From contig CAMLDY010000133.1 of NCBI GenBank assembly GCA_946478895.1, positions 1 through 6,154 of the forward strand: DNA of 6,154 bases, in the 5' to 3' direction. Under the pieces are notes generated by a model. The model searched no databases. It was not told where the DNA came from and saw only the letters and a list, made by a program, of their open reading frames with translations. A program made the position numbers and the translations under genes. This stretch comes from an uncultured Gemmatimonadota bacterium (lineage in GTDB: Bacteria > Gemmatimonadota > Gemmatimonadetes > Gemmatimonadales > Gemmatimonadaceae). Of the stretch, positions 1-4,890 are shown one piece after another (position 1 is the first letter of the stretch; each line of letters opens with the position of its first letter).

Positions 1-186
1 CTGAACGGGTGCGAGACGTCAGTGGCATAGATGCGAGTGATCGGTTCACAACGTCGGGACGTTTCTACTCGCCCTCAGCGCACAAGCGGTTGCCTGTGCT
101 GGGACCGCCACCTCGAGACGTCCCGACGTAGTGAACTGCAAACTGGCGACGCCGCTACTCGCGACTGGCACCCGTTCCGTTGCAGT
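1..186 (-). repeat. Long nested palindrome, copy E1 (left end cut by window)
   Basis: This is a large imperfect palindrome centred near 89.5 and related to the copy at 2814-3006. By symmetry about 8 bp of its left end lie outside the window. Three nested pairings are visible. The outer one pairs the GAACGGGTGC at 3-12 with GCACCCGTTC near 168-177. The middle one pairs 44-62 with 118-136 (19 bp, one mismatch, around an ACGTCGGGACGT motif). The core is a hairpin at 80-99 with an eight-base-pair stem. The outer pairing decays beyond its tip. Read on the minus strand, in the direction of the thioredoxin gene, it aligns with E2. Its proximal arm begins with the same 19 bases as E2 and shares AGTAGCG, and its distal arm (30 down to 3) matches E2 2970-2997 at 27 of 28 positions. 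It starts 15 nt after the thioredoxin stop. It has no poly-T tract and no convincing ORF. It could be a REP/BIME-like or MITE-like element, or a structured 3' UTR; the function is unknown. Confidence 0.85.
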
Positions 187-192
187 TCAGCA

Positions 193-207
193 GTGTAGCA
201 GCTACAC
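193..207. repeat. Short palindrome over the thioredoxin stop codon
   Basis: GTGTAGC-A-GCTACAC is a perfect 7+7 inverted repeat with a one-base centre. It contains the TAG stop of the thioredoxin gene (202-204) and lies directly beside E1. The centre is too short for a good RNA loop, so a protein-binding site or chance are the likelier readings. It is seen directly in the sequence; no role is established. Confidence 0.4.
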
Positions 208-756
208 CCCACCCGCCGCTCTCACCGGCCCCCTCGCGCAGCACTCCTCGAGCATCGCCACGATCTCGCCCATCGTGCTCAATCCCTTGTCGCGCGCGTA
301 AAAAGAGCGAACCTCGCGGTAGCGATCCTCCTTGGGCAAGGCCAGTCCTTTCTCGATCACCCACTTCTGGAGTTCGCGCGGTCGCGGTCCCCACCAGCCG
401 CACTCCTCGAATTTCTGATTCAACAGGATCACGATCGGGATCGATCGCGATTGCCCGGTCAAATGGGTGTCCATGATATCGAGATTCTCATCGCGCGCGA
501 GAATGCGCATGTCCATGTTGCTCACCGACTCGGCGAGCTTCTCGATCAGCGGGACGATGTTGACCGCGTCCCCACACCAATCCTCGCTCAGCACCAGCAG
601 ATGCCAGTGGCCGTGGAGAGCCTCGACGCGCGCCGACATTTCGATCGGGACGACGGCGCGCTTGTAGATCGCGAGCCACAGCTCGCGGTTCTTGATCGGG
701 CGGGCAATGAATTCGGCGAAGTTCTCGCCGTCACAGTATCTGGCCTTTGTTATCAC
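202..756 (-). CDS. Thioredoxin-like fold protein, single-Cys WCGDA active site
   Basis: This encodes a 184-residue cytoplasmic protein of the thioredoxin superfamily, closest in my recognition to the Thioredoxin_9 type. A strand (LLVL) leads into SEDWCGDA at residues 57-64, which is the position of a thioredoxin CXXC. Here only C61 is present and the second Cys is replaced by A64, so classical dithiol exchange at this site is not possible. RSIPIVILLN around residues 104-113 carries the cis-Pro (P107) expected of the fold. GWWGPRPRELQKWV and a YREVRSFYARDKG tail follow; I recall these as typical of homologues in Gemmatimonadota-like genomes. The GTG at 756 is chosen as start. It lies 10 nt after the elaA stop, and an AGG overlapping that stop (766-768) sits 9 nt before it. 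The ATG at 834 would overlap elaA by 68 bp and add residues unlike the family. It is probably cotranscribed with elaA. Substrate and partner are unknown. Confidence 0.88.
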   Translation of the reverse strand: MITKARYCDGENFAEFIARPIKNRELWLAIYKRAVVPIEMSARVEALHGHWHLLVLSEDWCGDAVNIVPLIEKLAESVSNMDMRILARDENLDIMDTHLTGQSRSIPIVILLNQKFEECGWWGPRPRELQKWVIEKGLALPKEDRYREVRSFYARDKGLSTMGEIVAMLEECCARGPVRAAGGV

Positions 757-765
757 GTTGGTTGA

Positions 766-768
766 CCT
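766..768 (-). promoter_or_regulatory. Ribosome binding site for the thioredoxin-like gene
   Basis: AGG on the minus strand overlaps the elaA TAG stop and lies 9 nt upstream of the GTG at 756. This stop/start arrangement fits translational coupling with elaA and supports the GTG start over the upstream ATG at 834. The site is short, so the call is modest. Confidence 0.4.
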
Positions 769-1282
769 ATCGAACCATGTCGACGTGCATGATTCCGTCT
801 TCGTCGTACGGCGCGGACACGACAGTGAATCCAAAGCCGATGTAGAAATCCACCAGGCGCTGCTGCGCTGCGATCTTGATGCGCTGACCCGGCATGAGTA
901 TCTCCGTGCGGCGCAATCCTTCGGCCATCAGAGCTCTGCCGATCCCGGTCCCTCTAACCGAAGGTGCGGTGACGATCCGGCCGATCGACCCCTCGGTGTA
1001 CCGGACGCCCGGCTCGAACACGCGTGCGTACGCAACGAGATCACGCTTGCCATCTGTCTCGTACCAGCCGAGGAGGTGCCACGCGTTGGGGTCGCGACCG
1101 TCGGCGTCGGGGTAGGGGCACTGTTGCTCGACGACGAACACAGCCTCGCGGAGCCTCACGATCGCGTAGAGCTGCTCGGGACTGAGCTCGCTGAAGCGCG
1201 ACCACTGCCAGACGATTTGATCGCCGCGTGGTGCGTCGATCCGCGCAGGTCCGGACGCTGGCGGTGAGCTTGTCTTGGTCAA
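767..1282 (-). CDS. elaA: ElaA-family GNAT N-acetyltransferase
   Basis: This encodes a 171-residue GCN5-related acetyltransferase that would use acetyl-CoA to acetylate an unidentified amine substrate in the cytoplasm. The match to E. coli ElaA runs through nearly the whole length: SELSPEQLYAIVRLREAVFVVEQ (residues 31-53), CPYPDADG (55-62), LGWYE (71-75), LVAYARVF (82-89), and the C-terminal YDEDGIMHVDM (159-169). The acetyl-CoA pyrophosphate loop is VRGTGIGRALM at 109-119. About 20 residues at the N terminus precede the usual family start and are rich in Ser, Pro and Gly. TTG at 1282 is the only canonical start codon in frame between the upstream TAG and the conserved region, and it has a strong AGGGA six bases before it. 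The gene is divergent from the M28 peptidase across a 52-bp gap and leads into the thioredoxin-like gene. The physiological substrate of ElaA is not known to me. Confidence 0.92.
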   Translation of the reverse strand: MTKTSSPPASGPARIDAPRGDQIVWQWSRFSELSPEQLYAIVRLREAVFVVEQQCPYPDADGRDPNAWHLLGWYETDGKRDLVAYARVFEPGVRYTEGSIGRIVTAPSVRGTGIGRALMAEGLRRTEILMPGQRIKIAAQQRLVDFYIGFGFTVVSAPYDEDGIMHVDMVR

Positions 1283-1334: not shown

Positions 1335-2810
1335 ATGCGCCGGAACGTGCTCGTCGTGCTCGCAGTTGGGCTGGCCTCTTCATTGTCCTGTGCGCCACAG
1401 GGTCTCCAACCCGCAAATGGTGCCGCGCCCGTGACCGGCATGCCGCCGGGCGGTTTTGTTCCGAGCGCAACCCTCGTTTCGCCCGGCACTCTCAGCACCA
1501 CCATCGGATTGAAAGAGGATCCTGCGCTCGCCGCGACGATCGCTGACATCTCCGCGTCGGAAATCCGCGCCACCGATTCCGCGCTCGTCTCCTTCGGCAC
1601 GCGCCACGCCATGAGCGACACCCTGAGCGCCACCCGCGGCATCGGCGCCGCGCGTCGATATCTGTTCGCGAAACTCGATGGCTACAGCCAGGCGTGCGGC
1701 GGCTGCATGCGCGTCGAGTACGACGGCGAGATGATGGAGATGCGAGGGCACCCCCAGCGCCCAATGGTCAACATCGTCGACGTCGAAGCGTGGCTGCCCG
1801 GACGCGATACCATGCGCGTGGTCGTGATCGGCGGCCACTATGATTCATGTGGCTGCGCCCGCACCGACATTGGCCCGCTCGCGCGGTTCGAGGCTACCCA
1901 GGACGCGCCCGGCGCCGACGACGATGGCTCGGGAACTTCGGCAGTGATGGAGCTTGCACGCGTCTTCTCGAAACATTTTCCGCACGGGCTCGACGCGACG
2001 ATCATCTTCGTTGCGTACAGCGGCGAAGAACAGGGGCTCTACGGCTCGACCCACCTCGCCAATCGCCTCCACGCCGCGGGCTACAACGTCGTCGCTGCCT
2101 TCACCGACGACATCGTCGGCAACGTCGTCGCGGACGACGGTACCACCGATTCCACCAGCATGCGGATCTACGGCGCCGATCCGGACAACGGCTCCAGCCG
2201 CGAGCTGGCGCGCTACGCCTGGGCGACCGGCCAGATCTACAACCCAGGCTTCGAGGTGCTACCGGTGTTCCGCCTGGATCGCATCGGCCGCGGTGGCGAC
2301 CACATTCCCTTCGTCAGGCTCGGCGATCCGGGGCTTCGGTTCAGCGAGCGTCTGGAGAACTACAAGCGGCAGCATCTTCCCACCGACGATTTCGCGCACG
2401 TGAATTTCGGCTACGTTGCCAACGTCGCGCGCATCAACGCGTCGGTGGTCGGCTCGCTTGCCGCCGCACCGGCCGCCCCGCTCGCCTACGCGCGGCGCGA
2501 TCGCGCTTCGGGCGGCCAGAAGTGGATGCTGCAATGGAAGCCGATAACCGGCGCGTCGAGCTATGAGGTTCTCTTCCGCCGCACCTACGCTCCGACCTAC
2601 GAAAAGATTTATCCAGTCGGCGACACCACTTCGTTCCTGCTCCCCGACCAGCTCGACGATGGCTGGGCAGCGGTGCGCTCGGTCGGCGCGAACGGGGCGA
2701 GGTCGTTGACCGGCGCGGTGCCTCCACCCTGCCCGATCCTCAGCACCCACGCTGATTCAGTCGCAGCCGGAGATTTGCTTCGGAACTGCATCAGGGCGGC
2801 CGGTCGATAA
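1335..2810 (+). CDS. Secreted M28-family zinc aminopeptidase with FN3-like C-terminal domain
   Basis: This encodes a 491-residue exported metallopeptidase of family M28, expected to remove N-terminal residues from peptides with two zinc ions. Residues 1-19 (RR, then VLVVLAVGLASSLSC) form a signal peptide. C19 could be lipidated, but the lipobox is imperfect. The M28 ligand set is visible in order: H168 in GGHYDS, D196 in GADDDGSG, the E231-E232 pair in YSGEEQG, D259 in TDDIVGN and H347 in RQHLPTDD. GGDHIPF (320-326) matches the usual DH loop. Residues about 382-460 (KWMLQWKPITGASSYEVLFRR, then GWAAVRSVGANG) resemble a fibronectin type III domain. Two cysteine clusters, CGGC (121-124) and CGC (172-174), flank the first ligands. 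The ATG at 1335 is chosen because it begins the signal peptide and has GGA 9 nt upstream. The in-frame TTG at 1275 would bury the signal and overlap elaA. Substrate is not determinable here. Confidence 0.92.
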   Translation: MRRNVLVVLAVGLASSLSCAPQGLQPANGAAPVTGMPPGGFVPSATLVSPGTLSTTIGLKEDPALAATIADISASEIRATDSALVSFGTRHAMSDTLSATRGIGAARRYLFAKLDGYSQACGGCMRVEYDGEMMEMRGHPQRPMVNIVDVEAWLPGRDTMRVVVIGGHYDSCGCARTDIGPLARFEATQDAPGADDDGSGTSAVMELARVFSKHFPHGLDATIIFVAYSGEEQGLYGSTHLANRLHAAGYNVVAAFTDDIVGNVVADDGTTDSTSMRIYGADPDNGSSRELARYAWATGQIYNPGFEVLPVFRLDRIGRGGDHIPFVRLGDPGLRFSERLENYKRQHLPTDDFAHVNFGYVANVARINASVVGSLAAAPAAPLAYARRDRASGGQKWMLQWKPITGASSYEVLFRRTYAPTYEKIYPVGDTTSFLLPDQLDDGWAAVRSVGANGARSLTGAVPPPCPILSTHADSVAAGDLLRNCIRAAGR

Positions 2811-2813
2811 TTG

Positions 2814-3006
2814 ACTGCAACGGAACGGGTGCGAGACGTCAGTAGCGTAGATGCCAGGGATTGGTTCACTACGTCGGGACGTCACTGATGGCATTCGCGG
2901 CACAGGCAGCTGCTTGTGCTCCAAATGCGACCGGTGACGTCCCGGCGTAGTGAACCAACGAGCTGCCGACTATGCCACTGACATCTCGCACCCGTTCCGT
3001 TGCAGT
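2814..3006 (+). repeat. Long nested palindrome, copy E2 (complete)
   Basis: This complete 193-bp element begins 3 nt after the M28 peptidase stop. Outer arms 2814-2850 and 2970-3006 pair over 37 bp with three mismatches; each end reads ACTGCAACGGAACGGGTGCG inward. Middle arms 2861-2885 and 2934-2958 pair over 25 bp with one mismatch (a G.U wobble as RNA). The core hairpin at 2900-2919 has an eight-base-pair stem with one G.U and a CAGC/GCTG-type tip. The arms are separated by poorly matching bulges of about 10 and 14 bases. It is related to E1 but lies on the opposite strand. I see no target-site duplication and no T-run after the arms, so a standard intrinsic terminator is not supported. As RNA it could form one rod about 95 bp long. 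It could be a non-autonomous mobile repeat, an mRNA-stabilising 3' structure, or both. Confidence 0.88.
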
Positions 3007-3042: not shown

Positions 3043-4890
3043 ATGTCCTCAAAACTCCCGGCCTCGATCCTCGCCGCTCTCATCGCCTGCGCTCCGGCTT
3101 CCACCACCTTCTCCCCGCCTCTCGCCCCCGGCGTCGATCCCTCCGCGCGCAACCTCCTCGGCCCCGCCAACCCCGGCGCCAATTCCCCGCTCTCGAGCGC
3201 CGACCAGCGCTGGGTCGATAACACCCTCGCGTCGCTCACCCTCCGCCAAAAAGTCGGACAGCTGATCATGCCGTGGGTCGGTGGCGACTACGCCGCCGTC
3301 GGCTCCCCGGAATTCGAGGAAGTGCGCAAATGGGTCGAGGACGACCAGGTCGGGGCCCTCGTGCTCTCCATCGGAATGCCGCTCAGCTACGCCGCAAAGC
3401 TGAACGAGCTGCAAACGCGGGCGAGAGTTCCTTTGCTCATCGCTTCCGACATGGAGAACGGTCCGGGCATGCGCCTCGGCAACATCTACGCGCTGCCATC
3501 GCTCCTTCCCCAGGGCGGTGGCACCGTCTTCCCGCCGGTGATGGCGCTTGGCGCGACCGGCTCCGAGGACCTCGCGTTCAAGCTCGGTCAGGTGCTTGGC
3601 AGCGAAGCGAGAGCCATCGGCGTGCACATGGCGTTCGGTCCCGTGCTCGACGTGAACTCGAATCCGCTCAACCCGATCATCAACACCCGGTCGTTCGGCG
3701 AAAATCCACAGCTGGTGAGCCGTCTCGCGCAGGCGTACATCCGCGGCGCGCGGTCGATGGGATTGATGACGACCGGAAAACATTTTCCGGGACACGGCGA
3801 TACCGACGTCGATTCGCATCTCGAGCTGCCGACGATTCGCGCCGATCGCGCGCAGCTCGATTCCATCGATCTGCCGCCGTTTCGAGCCGCGGTCGCCGAG
3901 AATGTCGATGCGATCATGACCGCGCACATTGCGGTGGTCGGTGTCGAAGGACCAAACGCCGGCCCCGCGACGCTCTCTCCGCGGTTCATGACGGGTATTC
4001 TGCGCGACGAAATGCACTTCCCCGGCATCCTCTTCACCGACGCCATGACGATGGGTGGAGTAGCGAAGCGCTACGGCGCCACCGAGCCGCTCATCCTCGC
4101 TCTCGAGGCCGGAGCGGACGTTCTGTTGATGCCCCACAGCGTCCCCGAAGCGATTACGACCGTCGTCGACGCCGTCCACAGCGGAAGGCTCACCGAGGCG
4201 CGCATCGATTCATCGGTGCGCCGCATCCTGACGGCAAAGGCCCGCGCCGGACTGCGCACCGGCAGGCTCGTGGACCTCAACGCCGTCGATCGAATCGTCG
4301 ATATCCCGGCTCACACAAAGATCGCCGACGAGATCGCGGAGAAATCCATCACCCTGGCGATCGACAAGCAGAACCTCGTGCCCCTGGCGCTCGACTCGTC
4401 GAAGCGAGTCCTCGCCATCACCTACGCCGACCCGTCCGATCTGGTCGCGGGCCGGACCTTCAACGGCATCCTCGCCGACAGCATCCGCGGCCTTCAGATG
4501 GCGCGGGTCGACACCCGCACCACCCCCGCCGAGTACGGCGAACTGGCCTCGCGAGCCGATTCGGCAGACGTCATCGTGGTCTCGGCATACGTTTCCCCCC
4601 GCGCATTCGCGGGGTCGGTGGGCGCCGAGGGCGATTTCGGGCCATTTGTCGAAAAACTGGCGTTGTCCGGGAAGCCCATAATCGTCCTCTCATTTGGGAG
4701 CCCGTATCTCCTCAGCGCGTTTCCTTCGGTGTCGTCCTACCTGCTGGCCTGGGGTGGCGCGCCGGTGAGTCAGCGTGCCGCCGCCCTGGCCTTGCTGGGC
4801 GACCGTGAGATCAGCGGGCACCTGCCAATCTCGCTCCCACCGACGGTTTCGTTCGGCGCGGGCGTACACAGGACCCAGATGCGGATGTAA
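3043..4890 (+). CDS. nagZ: GH3 beta-N-acetylhexosaminidase (NagZ-type, two-domain), lipoprotein
   Basis: This encodes a 615-residue family 3 glycosidase expected to release terminal GlcNAc from muropeptides or related chitooligosaccharides. Residues 1-16 are a short signal ending in the good lipobox LIAC (C16), so it is probably membrane-anchored outside the cytoplasm. The catalytic barrel spans about 55-410. KHFPGHGDTDVDSH at 246-259 is the NagZ signature, with the D257/H259 acid-base dyad that separates hexosaminidases from beta-glucosidases. FTDAMTM at 331-337 carries the nucleophile D333. SDMENGPG (135-142) and NTRSFGENP (214-222) are further conserved loops. Residues about 430-600 form a second alpha/beta domain, so it is of the long, B. 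subtilis-type architecture rather than the single-domain E. coli enzyme of about 340 residues. The start is supported by the signal peptide. The serine hydrolase gene follows after 3 nt. The GH3 family and NagZ subtype are secure; the exact natural substrate is inferred. Confidence 0.92.
   Translation: MSSKLPASILAALIACAPASTTFSPPLAPGVDPSARNLLGPANPGANSPLSSADQRWVDNTLASLTLRQKVGQLIMPWVGGDYAAVGSPEFEEVRKWVEDDQVGALVLSIGMPLSYAAKLNELQTRARVPLLIASDMENGPGMRLGNIYALPSLLPQGGGTVFPPVMALGATGSEDLAFKLGQVLGSEARAIGVHMAFGPVLDVNSNPLNPIINTRSFGENPQLVSRLAQAYIRGARSMGLMTTGKHFPGHGDTDVDSHLELPTIRADRAQLDSIDLPPFRAAVAENVDAIMTAHIAVVGVEGPNAGPATLSPRFMTGILRDEMHFPGILFTDAMTMGGVAKRYGATEPLILALEAGADVLLMPHSVPEAITTVVDAVHSGRLTEARIDSSVRRILTAKARAGLRTGRLVDLNAVDRIVDIPAHTKIADEIAEKSITLAIDKQNLVPLALDSSKRVLAITYADPSDLVAGRTFNGILADSIRGLQMARVDTRTTPAEYGELASRADSADVIVVSAYVSPRAFAGSVGAEGDFGPFVEKLALSGKPIIVLSFGSPYLLSAFPSVSSYLLAWGGAPVSQRAAALALLGDREISGHLPISLPPTVSFGAGVHRTQMRM

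Follow-up and report, generated by a model that had tools for sequence, protein, structure and literature searches.

E2, a nested palindrome of 193 nt, and its diverged copy E1 are members of a non-coding, dispersed family of palindromic repeats in one Gemmatimonadaceae clade (a name taken from the named relatives). Among the large palindromic repeats of bacteria it is a new family. Sequence comparisons support the view that its elements change in place and that their arms share a consensus.

Structure of E2 and E1

The window, i.e. the whole stretch of 6,154 nt that was analysed, carries genes for an M28 peptidase (1335..2810), a glycoside hydrolase family 3 (GH3) protein (3043..4890) and a serine hydrolase on the plus strand, and for Thioredoxin_9 (202..834) and GNAT on the minus strand. 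E2 (2814..3006, unstranded like E1) lies between the M28 peptidase gene, whose stop codon is 3 nt upstream, and the GH3 gene, which starts 36 nt past it. It is a full-length element, matched by the covariance model of the family over model positions 1-196 with 194 bits. The nested palindrome described in the earlier note is real. In the DNA fold, the outer and middle left arm (2814..2850) pairs with the middle and outer right arm (2970..3006) along 37 bases with two single mismatches inside, the inner left arm (2861..2887) pairs with the inner right arm (2932..2958) along 27 bases, and a core hairpin occupies 2900..2919. Folded end to end, E2 has a DNA minimum free energy of -80.6 kcal/mol vs -33.9 +/- 3.2 for 200 dinucleotide shuffles, none of which was as good (z -14.5).

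E1 (1..186) had been put forward as a diverged copy and is indeed a second one, truncated by the window edge, which removes its first model positions (139.7 bits over positions 8-196). It is 80 % like E2 along 98 nt and 78 % along 46 nt, and has a fold of its own that is weaker than that of E2 (z -4.35; none of 200 shuffles matched it). It lies 15 nt from the 3′ end of the Thioredoxin_9 gene. In the genome G003 only a short gap, empty of any recognised element, separates the M28 and GH3 genes (L003 around 278-437).

Distribution and copy number

When the GH3 protein was used as a query, 11 relatives were obtained: nine were Gemmatimonadaceae, Gemmatimonadetes or Gemmatimonadota bins, and a tenth belonged to Longimicrobiaceae. 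The DNA of E2 had matches in two of the 11 genomes. When 179 genomes of the family were searched with E2 DNA, scoring the best four candidates per genome, matches were found in ten. The covariance model was built from 22 full-length copies and run on 288 genomes of the order, under stricter filters and with the best eight candidates of each genome scored. It had matches at E <= 1e-6 in 12 of them, three of which (G003, G175 and G073) match only weakly. G184, which the DNA search had found, is not among the 12, and the three loci fetched from it (L044, L052 and L059) are all half elements that look as though they had lost one arm by deletion.

Counting both strands, so that places are about half as many, and scoring 150 candidates per genome, which makes the counts lower bounds, the model found at least 110 matches in G171, 92 in G173, 74 in G169, 71 in G170, 61 in G172 and 37 in G176. 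The match list of G171 collapses to at least 55 places. The earlier note had considered that only two copies might exist, or that the arms might diverge freely; the search with E2 and the covariance model instead recovered a dispersed family with dozens of copies in single genomes and with paired changes in its arms. Plasmids and phages gave no match to E2, and viral contigs no exact match to the inner-arm pattern. Searches of open-licence papers for such repeats in Gemmatimonadetes or Gemmatimonadota, and for palindromic repeats with gene conversion, turned up no paper whose title or opening of the abstract describes this family. Four copies, L016 and L022 (G002) and L038 and L130:11370 (G173), are wrapped in one more concentric layer of about 25-50 nt on the outside.

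Comparison with known repeats and candidate movers

Palindromic repeats of bacteria are mostly explained by movement through RAYT or a transposase. Integron attC sites are imperfect palindromes past a stop codon, with the core GTTRRRY. The element is likewise an imperfect palindrome past a stop codon, but by inspection its ends read GTTGCAGT and not this core, its arms pair almost fully and its copies are scattered beside ordinary genes.

In anatomy REPINs are nearest to the element (PMC3116915, PMC8049555) and MITEs next (PMC10969869). REPINs are non-coding, extragenic sequences with two inverted conserved ends, a variable middle and many copies (PMC3116915), and the element, too, is extragenic, has two inverted conserved ends that form a hairpin around a variable core, and occurs in dozens of copies. 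These shared traits speak for a true REPIN moved by RAYT, a Y1 tyrosine transposase. We regard this as very improbable: the Y1 transposase (PF01797) was found in one of ten carrier genomes vs five of 14 control genomes (the carriers being incomplete bins), so a RAYT-type gene was not found in nine of ten carriers and RAYT was rejected as the mover. Between its ends the element also contains an additional inner arm and a core, making three nested pairing zones in about 193 nt, and its content at a fixed site varies between close genomes. The foot of REPIN/RAYT hairpins bears a GTAG or CGTC tag (PMC3733652), but the foot of the element reads ACTGCAAC, and GTAG is confined to the middle arm.

Other candidate movers were rejected as well. 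IS110 Transposase_20 was present in six of ten carriers, in some only as short weak matches, and in five of six other genomes; the reverse transcriptase RVT_1 was present in two of ten and two of six, so neither tracks the carriers. Loss of SbcCD as an explanation for the tolerance of long palindromes was rejected too, as an SbcD-like match is present both in carriers and in other genomes, in 17 of 18 altogether (over the cut-off in one). The searches for Y1, IS110 Transposase_20, RVT_1 and SbcD-like proteins thus linked no enzyme to the family.

Genomic position and the question of a structured RNA

None of 178 copies overlapped a gene predicted by our own codon-score gene finder by more than half. 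By gene context, 81 copies were tandem, 73 convergent, 13 divergent and 11 unclassifiable, and the element-free control gaps of contig C12 of G171 (674 kb) were 299 tandem, 38 convergent and 49 divergent; the convergent share is therefore 73 of 167 classifiable copies vs 38 of 386 control gaps. The upstream stop codon was nearer than the next start in 66 of the 81 tandem copies, with median distances of 28 nt to the stop and 77 nt to the start. In the simplest case, this siting at 3′ ends would be what remains after selection against insertion in genes and promoters.

Copies just past stop codons and between convergent genes, with arm pairs that co-vary, could also be a structured RNA: a hairpin transcribed at gene 3′ ends that ends or stabilises transcripts, with RNA selection keeping its arms paired. 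We find this unlikely. On the transcribed strand of the 81 tandem copies, G.T pairs were not commoner than A.C pairs (141 and 135), so the sign of RNA selection is absent, and a first set of copies had earlier given 29 vs 26. Before turning to the gene strand, the 178 copies had 376 G.T and 306 A.C pairs, on a strand chosen by the model, which favours G.T. RNA selection was rejected as the cause of arm pairing on the grounds of these equal counts. The 13 copies between divergent genes do not fit such a role either, nor does the result from Rfam, whose three matches in the window are all below the gathering score. T runs aimed at elements (11 among 173 copies) were not much commoner than those aimed away (7). 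A terminator-like hairpin with a T run was seen directly beside L098, L197, L054, L140, L223, L190 and L023; at the first four of these sites, at least, the element is thus not required for termination. The earlier note had proposed selection or copying on the folded form. Copying at the DNA level fits the sequences better than selection on an RNA fold, which the parity of G.T and A.C does not support.

Arm pairing and homogenisation

The observation that arms are kept and bulges are not was borne out in 67 aligned copies, in which paired columns are Watson-Crick in 92 % and bulge columns pair within a copy in 47 %. Among the 22 full-length copies, 95.4 % of the paired cells pair vs 90.4 % in shuffles, and 68 cells changed on both sides vs 27.6 in shuffles, which overstate significance because the copies share ancestry. 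Sliding the partner by 1-3 columns lowers pairing to 29-45 %. The pairs thus do co-vary, but much of this is due to arms being alike across the copies of a genome.

Comparisons within and between 178 copies separate the two effects. Outer arms of subfamily I pair at 0.888 when both belong to one copy, at 0.850 when the partner is taken from a different copy in that genome and at 0.758 when it comes from a different genome. The number of 2000 permutations reaching the observed outer-arm value was 0 in G171 and G173, 2 in G172, 3 in G176, 33 in G001, 196 in G169 and 1200 in G170. For the inner arm, a within-copy excess was found only in G171 (0 of 2000) and G176 (34 of 2000). In G173 the inner arm showed the reverse, 0.897 within vs 0.917 between copies, with all 2000 permutations at least as high, and the inner arms of subfamily II were likewise reversed in G170 (1979 of 2000) and G171 (1912 of 2000). 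Within a copy, the outer arm thus has a smaller yet genuine excess, which the inner arm mostly lacks. Likeness between copies explains much of the pairing. Much of the covariation, as judged from these alignments, is probably homogenisation between copies, with an arm consensus that is specific to groups and alike on both sides.

The same outer-arm motif stands on the left and right in 82 of 146 usable copies, compared with 40 % when the second arm is taken from other copies in that genome and subfamily, and none of 2000 permutations was as high; the remaining copies of the 178 have no motif on one side or belong to groups of fewer than three. With six more bases, 20 of the 146 have the same motif on both sides, and 52 of 2000 permutations were as high. 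Bulge positions, in turn, persist uncorrected, with bulge columns pairing equally within and between copies (0.468 vs 0.473, 67 copies), which disfavours plain correction from arm to arm along the whole element. Template switching makes the arms of inverted repeats alike (PMC8794818, PMC8604942), and the arms of single inverted repeats are kept alike in mitochondrial palindromes of Nematomorpha (PMC6649704). The element shares such likeness within one inverted repeat, but its arms are also alike across dozens of dispersed copies, and its bulges persist.

The arm motifs were classified by the bases after GAAC. The commonest is GGGTGCGAG in G169 (26 of 32 arms), G172 (24 of 26), G173 (27 of 58) and the window (three of four). 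It is GGGCGGGAG in G171 (26 of 110 arms) and G177 (7 of 8), while AGGCGGGAG is commonest in G001 (6 of 20) and GGGCGAGAG in G002 (5 of 8). In a second subfamily the motif is GGGATCCGAG in G170 (22 of 58 arms) and G171 (24 of 110), and in G176 it is GGGATGCGAG in nine of 32 arms and GGGATCCGAG in two. One motif is thus common to several genomes and most genomes have minority motifs; the subfamily labels are simple text patterns and put some copies in the wrong group (one of those in the window is labelled II). From L110:4962 onward, behind an element of subfamily II, its right arm is repeated in tandem with a period of about 36 nt. In the alignment A2, columns 21-52 and their mirror show near-invariant steps, AG on the left and CT on the right, every 7-8 nt, which run through the otherwise variable middle arm.

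Shared sites and change in place

Comparison of flanks showed many sites to be occupied in two to four genomes. Between distant genomes, elements at the same site were not clearly closer to each other than to other copies, which saturation alone could explain. In a comparison of close genomes, we sought 45 copies of G170 and G176 in the sequence fetched from G171; 32 had a syntenic site, 12 had none and one had too short a flank. The element was retained at 13 of the 32 sites (identity 0.87-0.99), changed at 14 (0.66-0.86) and not recognised at five, where the dividing line of 0.86, in the better orientation, was set after the values were known and is straddled by L042 (0.855) and L180 (0.869). 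Mean flank identity at the compared sites was 88.6-96.0 %. G170 vs G171 (median flank identity 94.9 %) accounted for 11 retained, seven changed and three element-less sites, and G176 vs G171 (91.4 %) for two, seven and two, with a degraded remnant at one of the last (L224/L118). The main weakness is that all these are comparisons of metagenome-assembled genomes, in which repeats may be misassembled; the changed sites are syntenic on both flanks. Such difference of sequence at the same site, far beyond that of the surroundings, is unusual for bacterial repeats. The changed sites could partly be independent insertions at one hot spot.

Most loci of G171 had been picked around its own elements, which biases occupancy upward. 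On contig C12, which was taken whole, 11 foreign copies were mapped, seven to occupied places (six sites) and four to empty ones. Duplicate loci (L060, L062, L104:14781, L111:11508, L129:4802 and L133) and weak elements (L104:13244 and L110:4747) were not counted as empty. Aligning the empty sites with MAFFT gave results of low quality, of which all but one were left out. L042 of G170 is closer to L117, at another site of G171 (0.938), than to its partner at the same site (0.866).

Eight of the 13 retained elements were at least as alike as their flanks and five less so. The interiors of L181, L183, L186 and L192 are 0.95-1.00 alike between G170 and G171, with flanks at about 95 %; at the retained sites L153, L180 and L190 the likeness of the interior is lower. 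The conserved retained copies hint at a constraint beyond a purely selfish reading. As another reading, the elements would be two-fold symmetric double-strand binding sites of a chromosomal protein, which leaves the bulges uncontacted and whose specificity the arm consensus follows. The symmetric consensus, the AG/CT steps of the middle arm, the conserved interiors of some retained copies and the inner arm without within-copy excess would all suit it. It is nevertheless improbable, since the outer arms of one copy agree beyond the level between copies, which double-strand binding does not need, and since whole occupants swap at a site.

Junctions, solo arms and flanks

At L179:2023/L125, G170 has 202 nt where G171 has 0 nt, a clean presence and absence with no target duplication. 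At L182/L107, G171 keeps 16 nt, which may be fused element ends, while at L050/L120 the left arm of the G170 element persists in G171 and is followed by a different complete element. The elements at L178/L200 have outer arms of different type and a right inner arm that is 0.95 alike. Among the 173 copies flanked by 60 nt or more, extra solo arms point outward only (28 left-type on the left and 17 right-type on the right, 45 vs 0 opposite), with extra arms on both flanks of five copies. Target-site duplication was rejected, as no consistent excess was found at offsets from -4 to 7 and lengths of 2-9 and the clean empty site has no duplication; the largest signal was two copies at offset 7 and length 5, with 0.06 expected.

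Bacterial MITEs (ERIC, QMITE and others) are short, mostly intergenic inverted-repeat sequences, one about 190 bp long and one mainly in 3′ untranslated regions (PMC10969869); the comparison with ERIC is one of description. The element is also short and non-coding with terminal inverted repeats, and may be a MITE that belongs to an unknown DNA transposon and inserts again and again with a strong preference for old copies, in which case the changed sites would be re-insertions and not conversions. The one clean occupied and empty pair, the outward solo arms around complete elements and the absence of insertion in predicted genes would agree with this. However, there is no consistent target duplication, the right inner arm at L178/L200 is alike while the outer arms differ in type, and the arms are alike across copies and sides. 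Nor was a related transposon found: no arm pair around a gene was seen in the 674-kb contig C12, by a scan so insensitive that a quarter of known arms score below 11 bits. Of 13 arm hits of at least 18 bits there, 11 lie in or touch known elements, one is near and one alone. On balance, re-insertion seems rather unlikely.

The reading that we prefer, to which we give an even chance, is that of a REPIN- or MITE-like palindromic repeat that changes by replacement in place and by homogenisation. The mechanism of change in place is inferred, and the sequences show no benefit to the host. The palindrome would form a hairpin or cruciform in DNA, which would break or stall replication. The element may then be re-made from another copy, either by ectopic gene conversion that uses the arms they have in common or by a new copy inserting within the old one. 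An old outer arm would at times be left as a scar, and copying between the two outer arms would restore their complementarity. This explanation is tempered because the inner arm is without within-copy excess in most genomes and one motif is shared by several genomes. A bolder version, which we offer only tentatively, is that the sites are lasting intergenic docking sites, at which palindromic cassettes are exchanged and their arms homogenised genome-wide on both sides by a dedicated, hairpin-acting process at the DNA level, with no RAYT, target duplication or coding partner. In this family position is uncoupled from content: sites last, occupants change and the outer arms follow the consensus of the genome group. 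If true, concerted evolution and the repair of palindromes in bacteria could be followed in a natural system with elements that can be counted, and the family would show that homogenisation of DNA, rather than selection on RNA, can produce covariation in hairpin repeats.

The immediate flanks showed no more than a slight excess of complementarity, 0.302 vs 0.285 +/- 0.008 at 20 nt, with 7/8 complementarity in four copies vs 1.2 in shuffles. Tandem heptads of the form AACTGNN flank 19 of 173 copies (12 of 55 in G171 and four of eight in G001), with four matches in the whole 674-kb contig. In L013:1-42 these heptads seem to be in phase with the end of the element.
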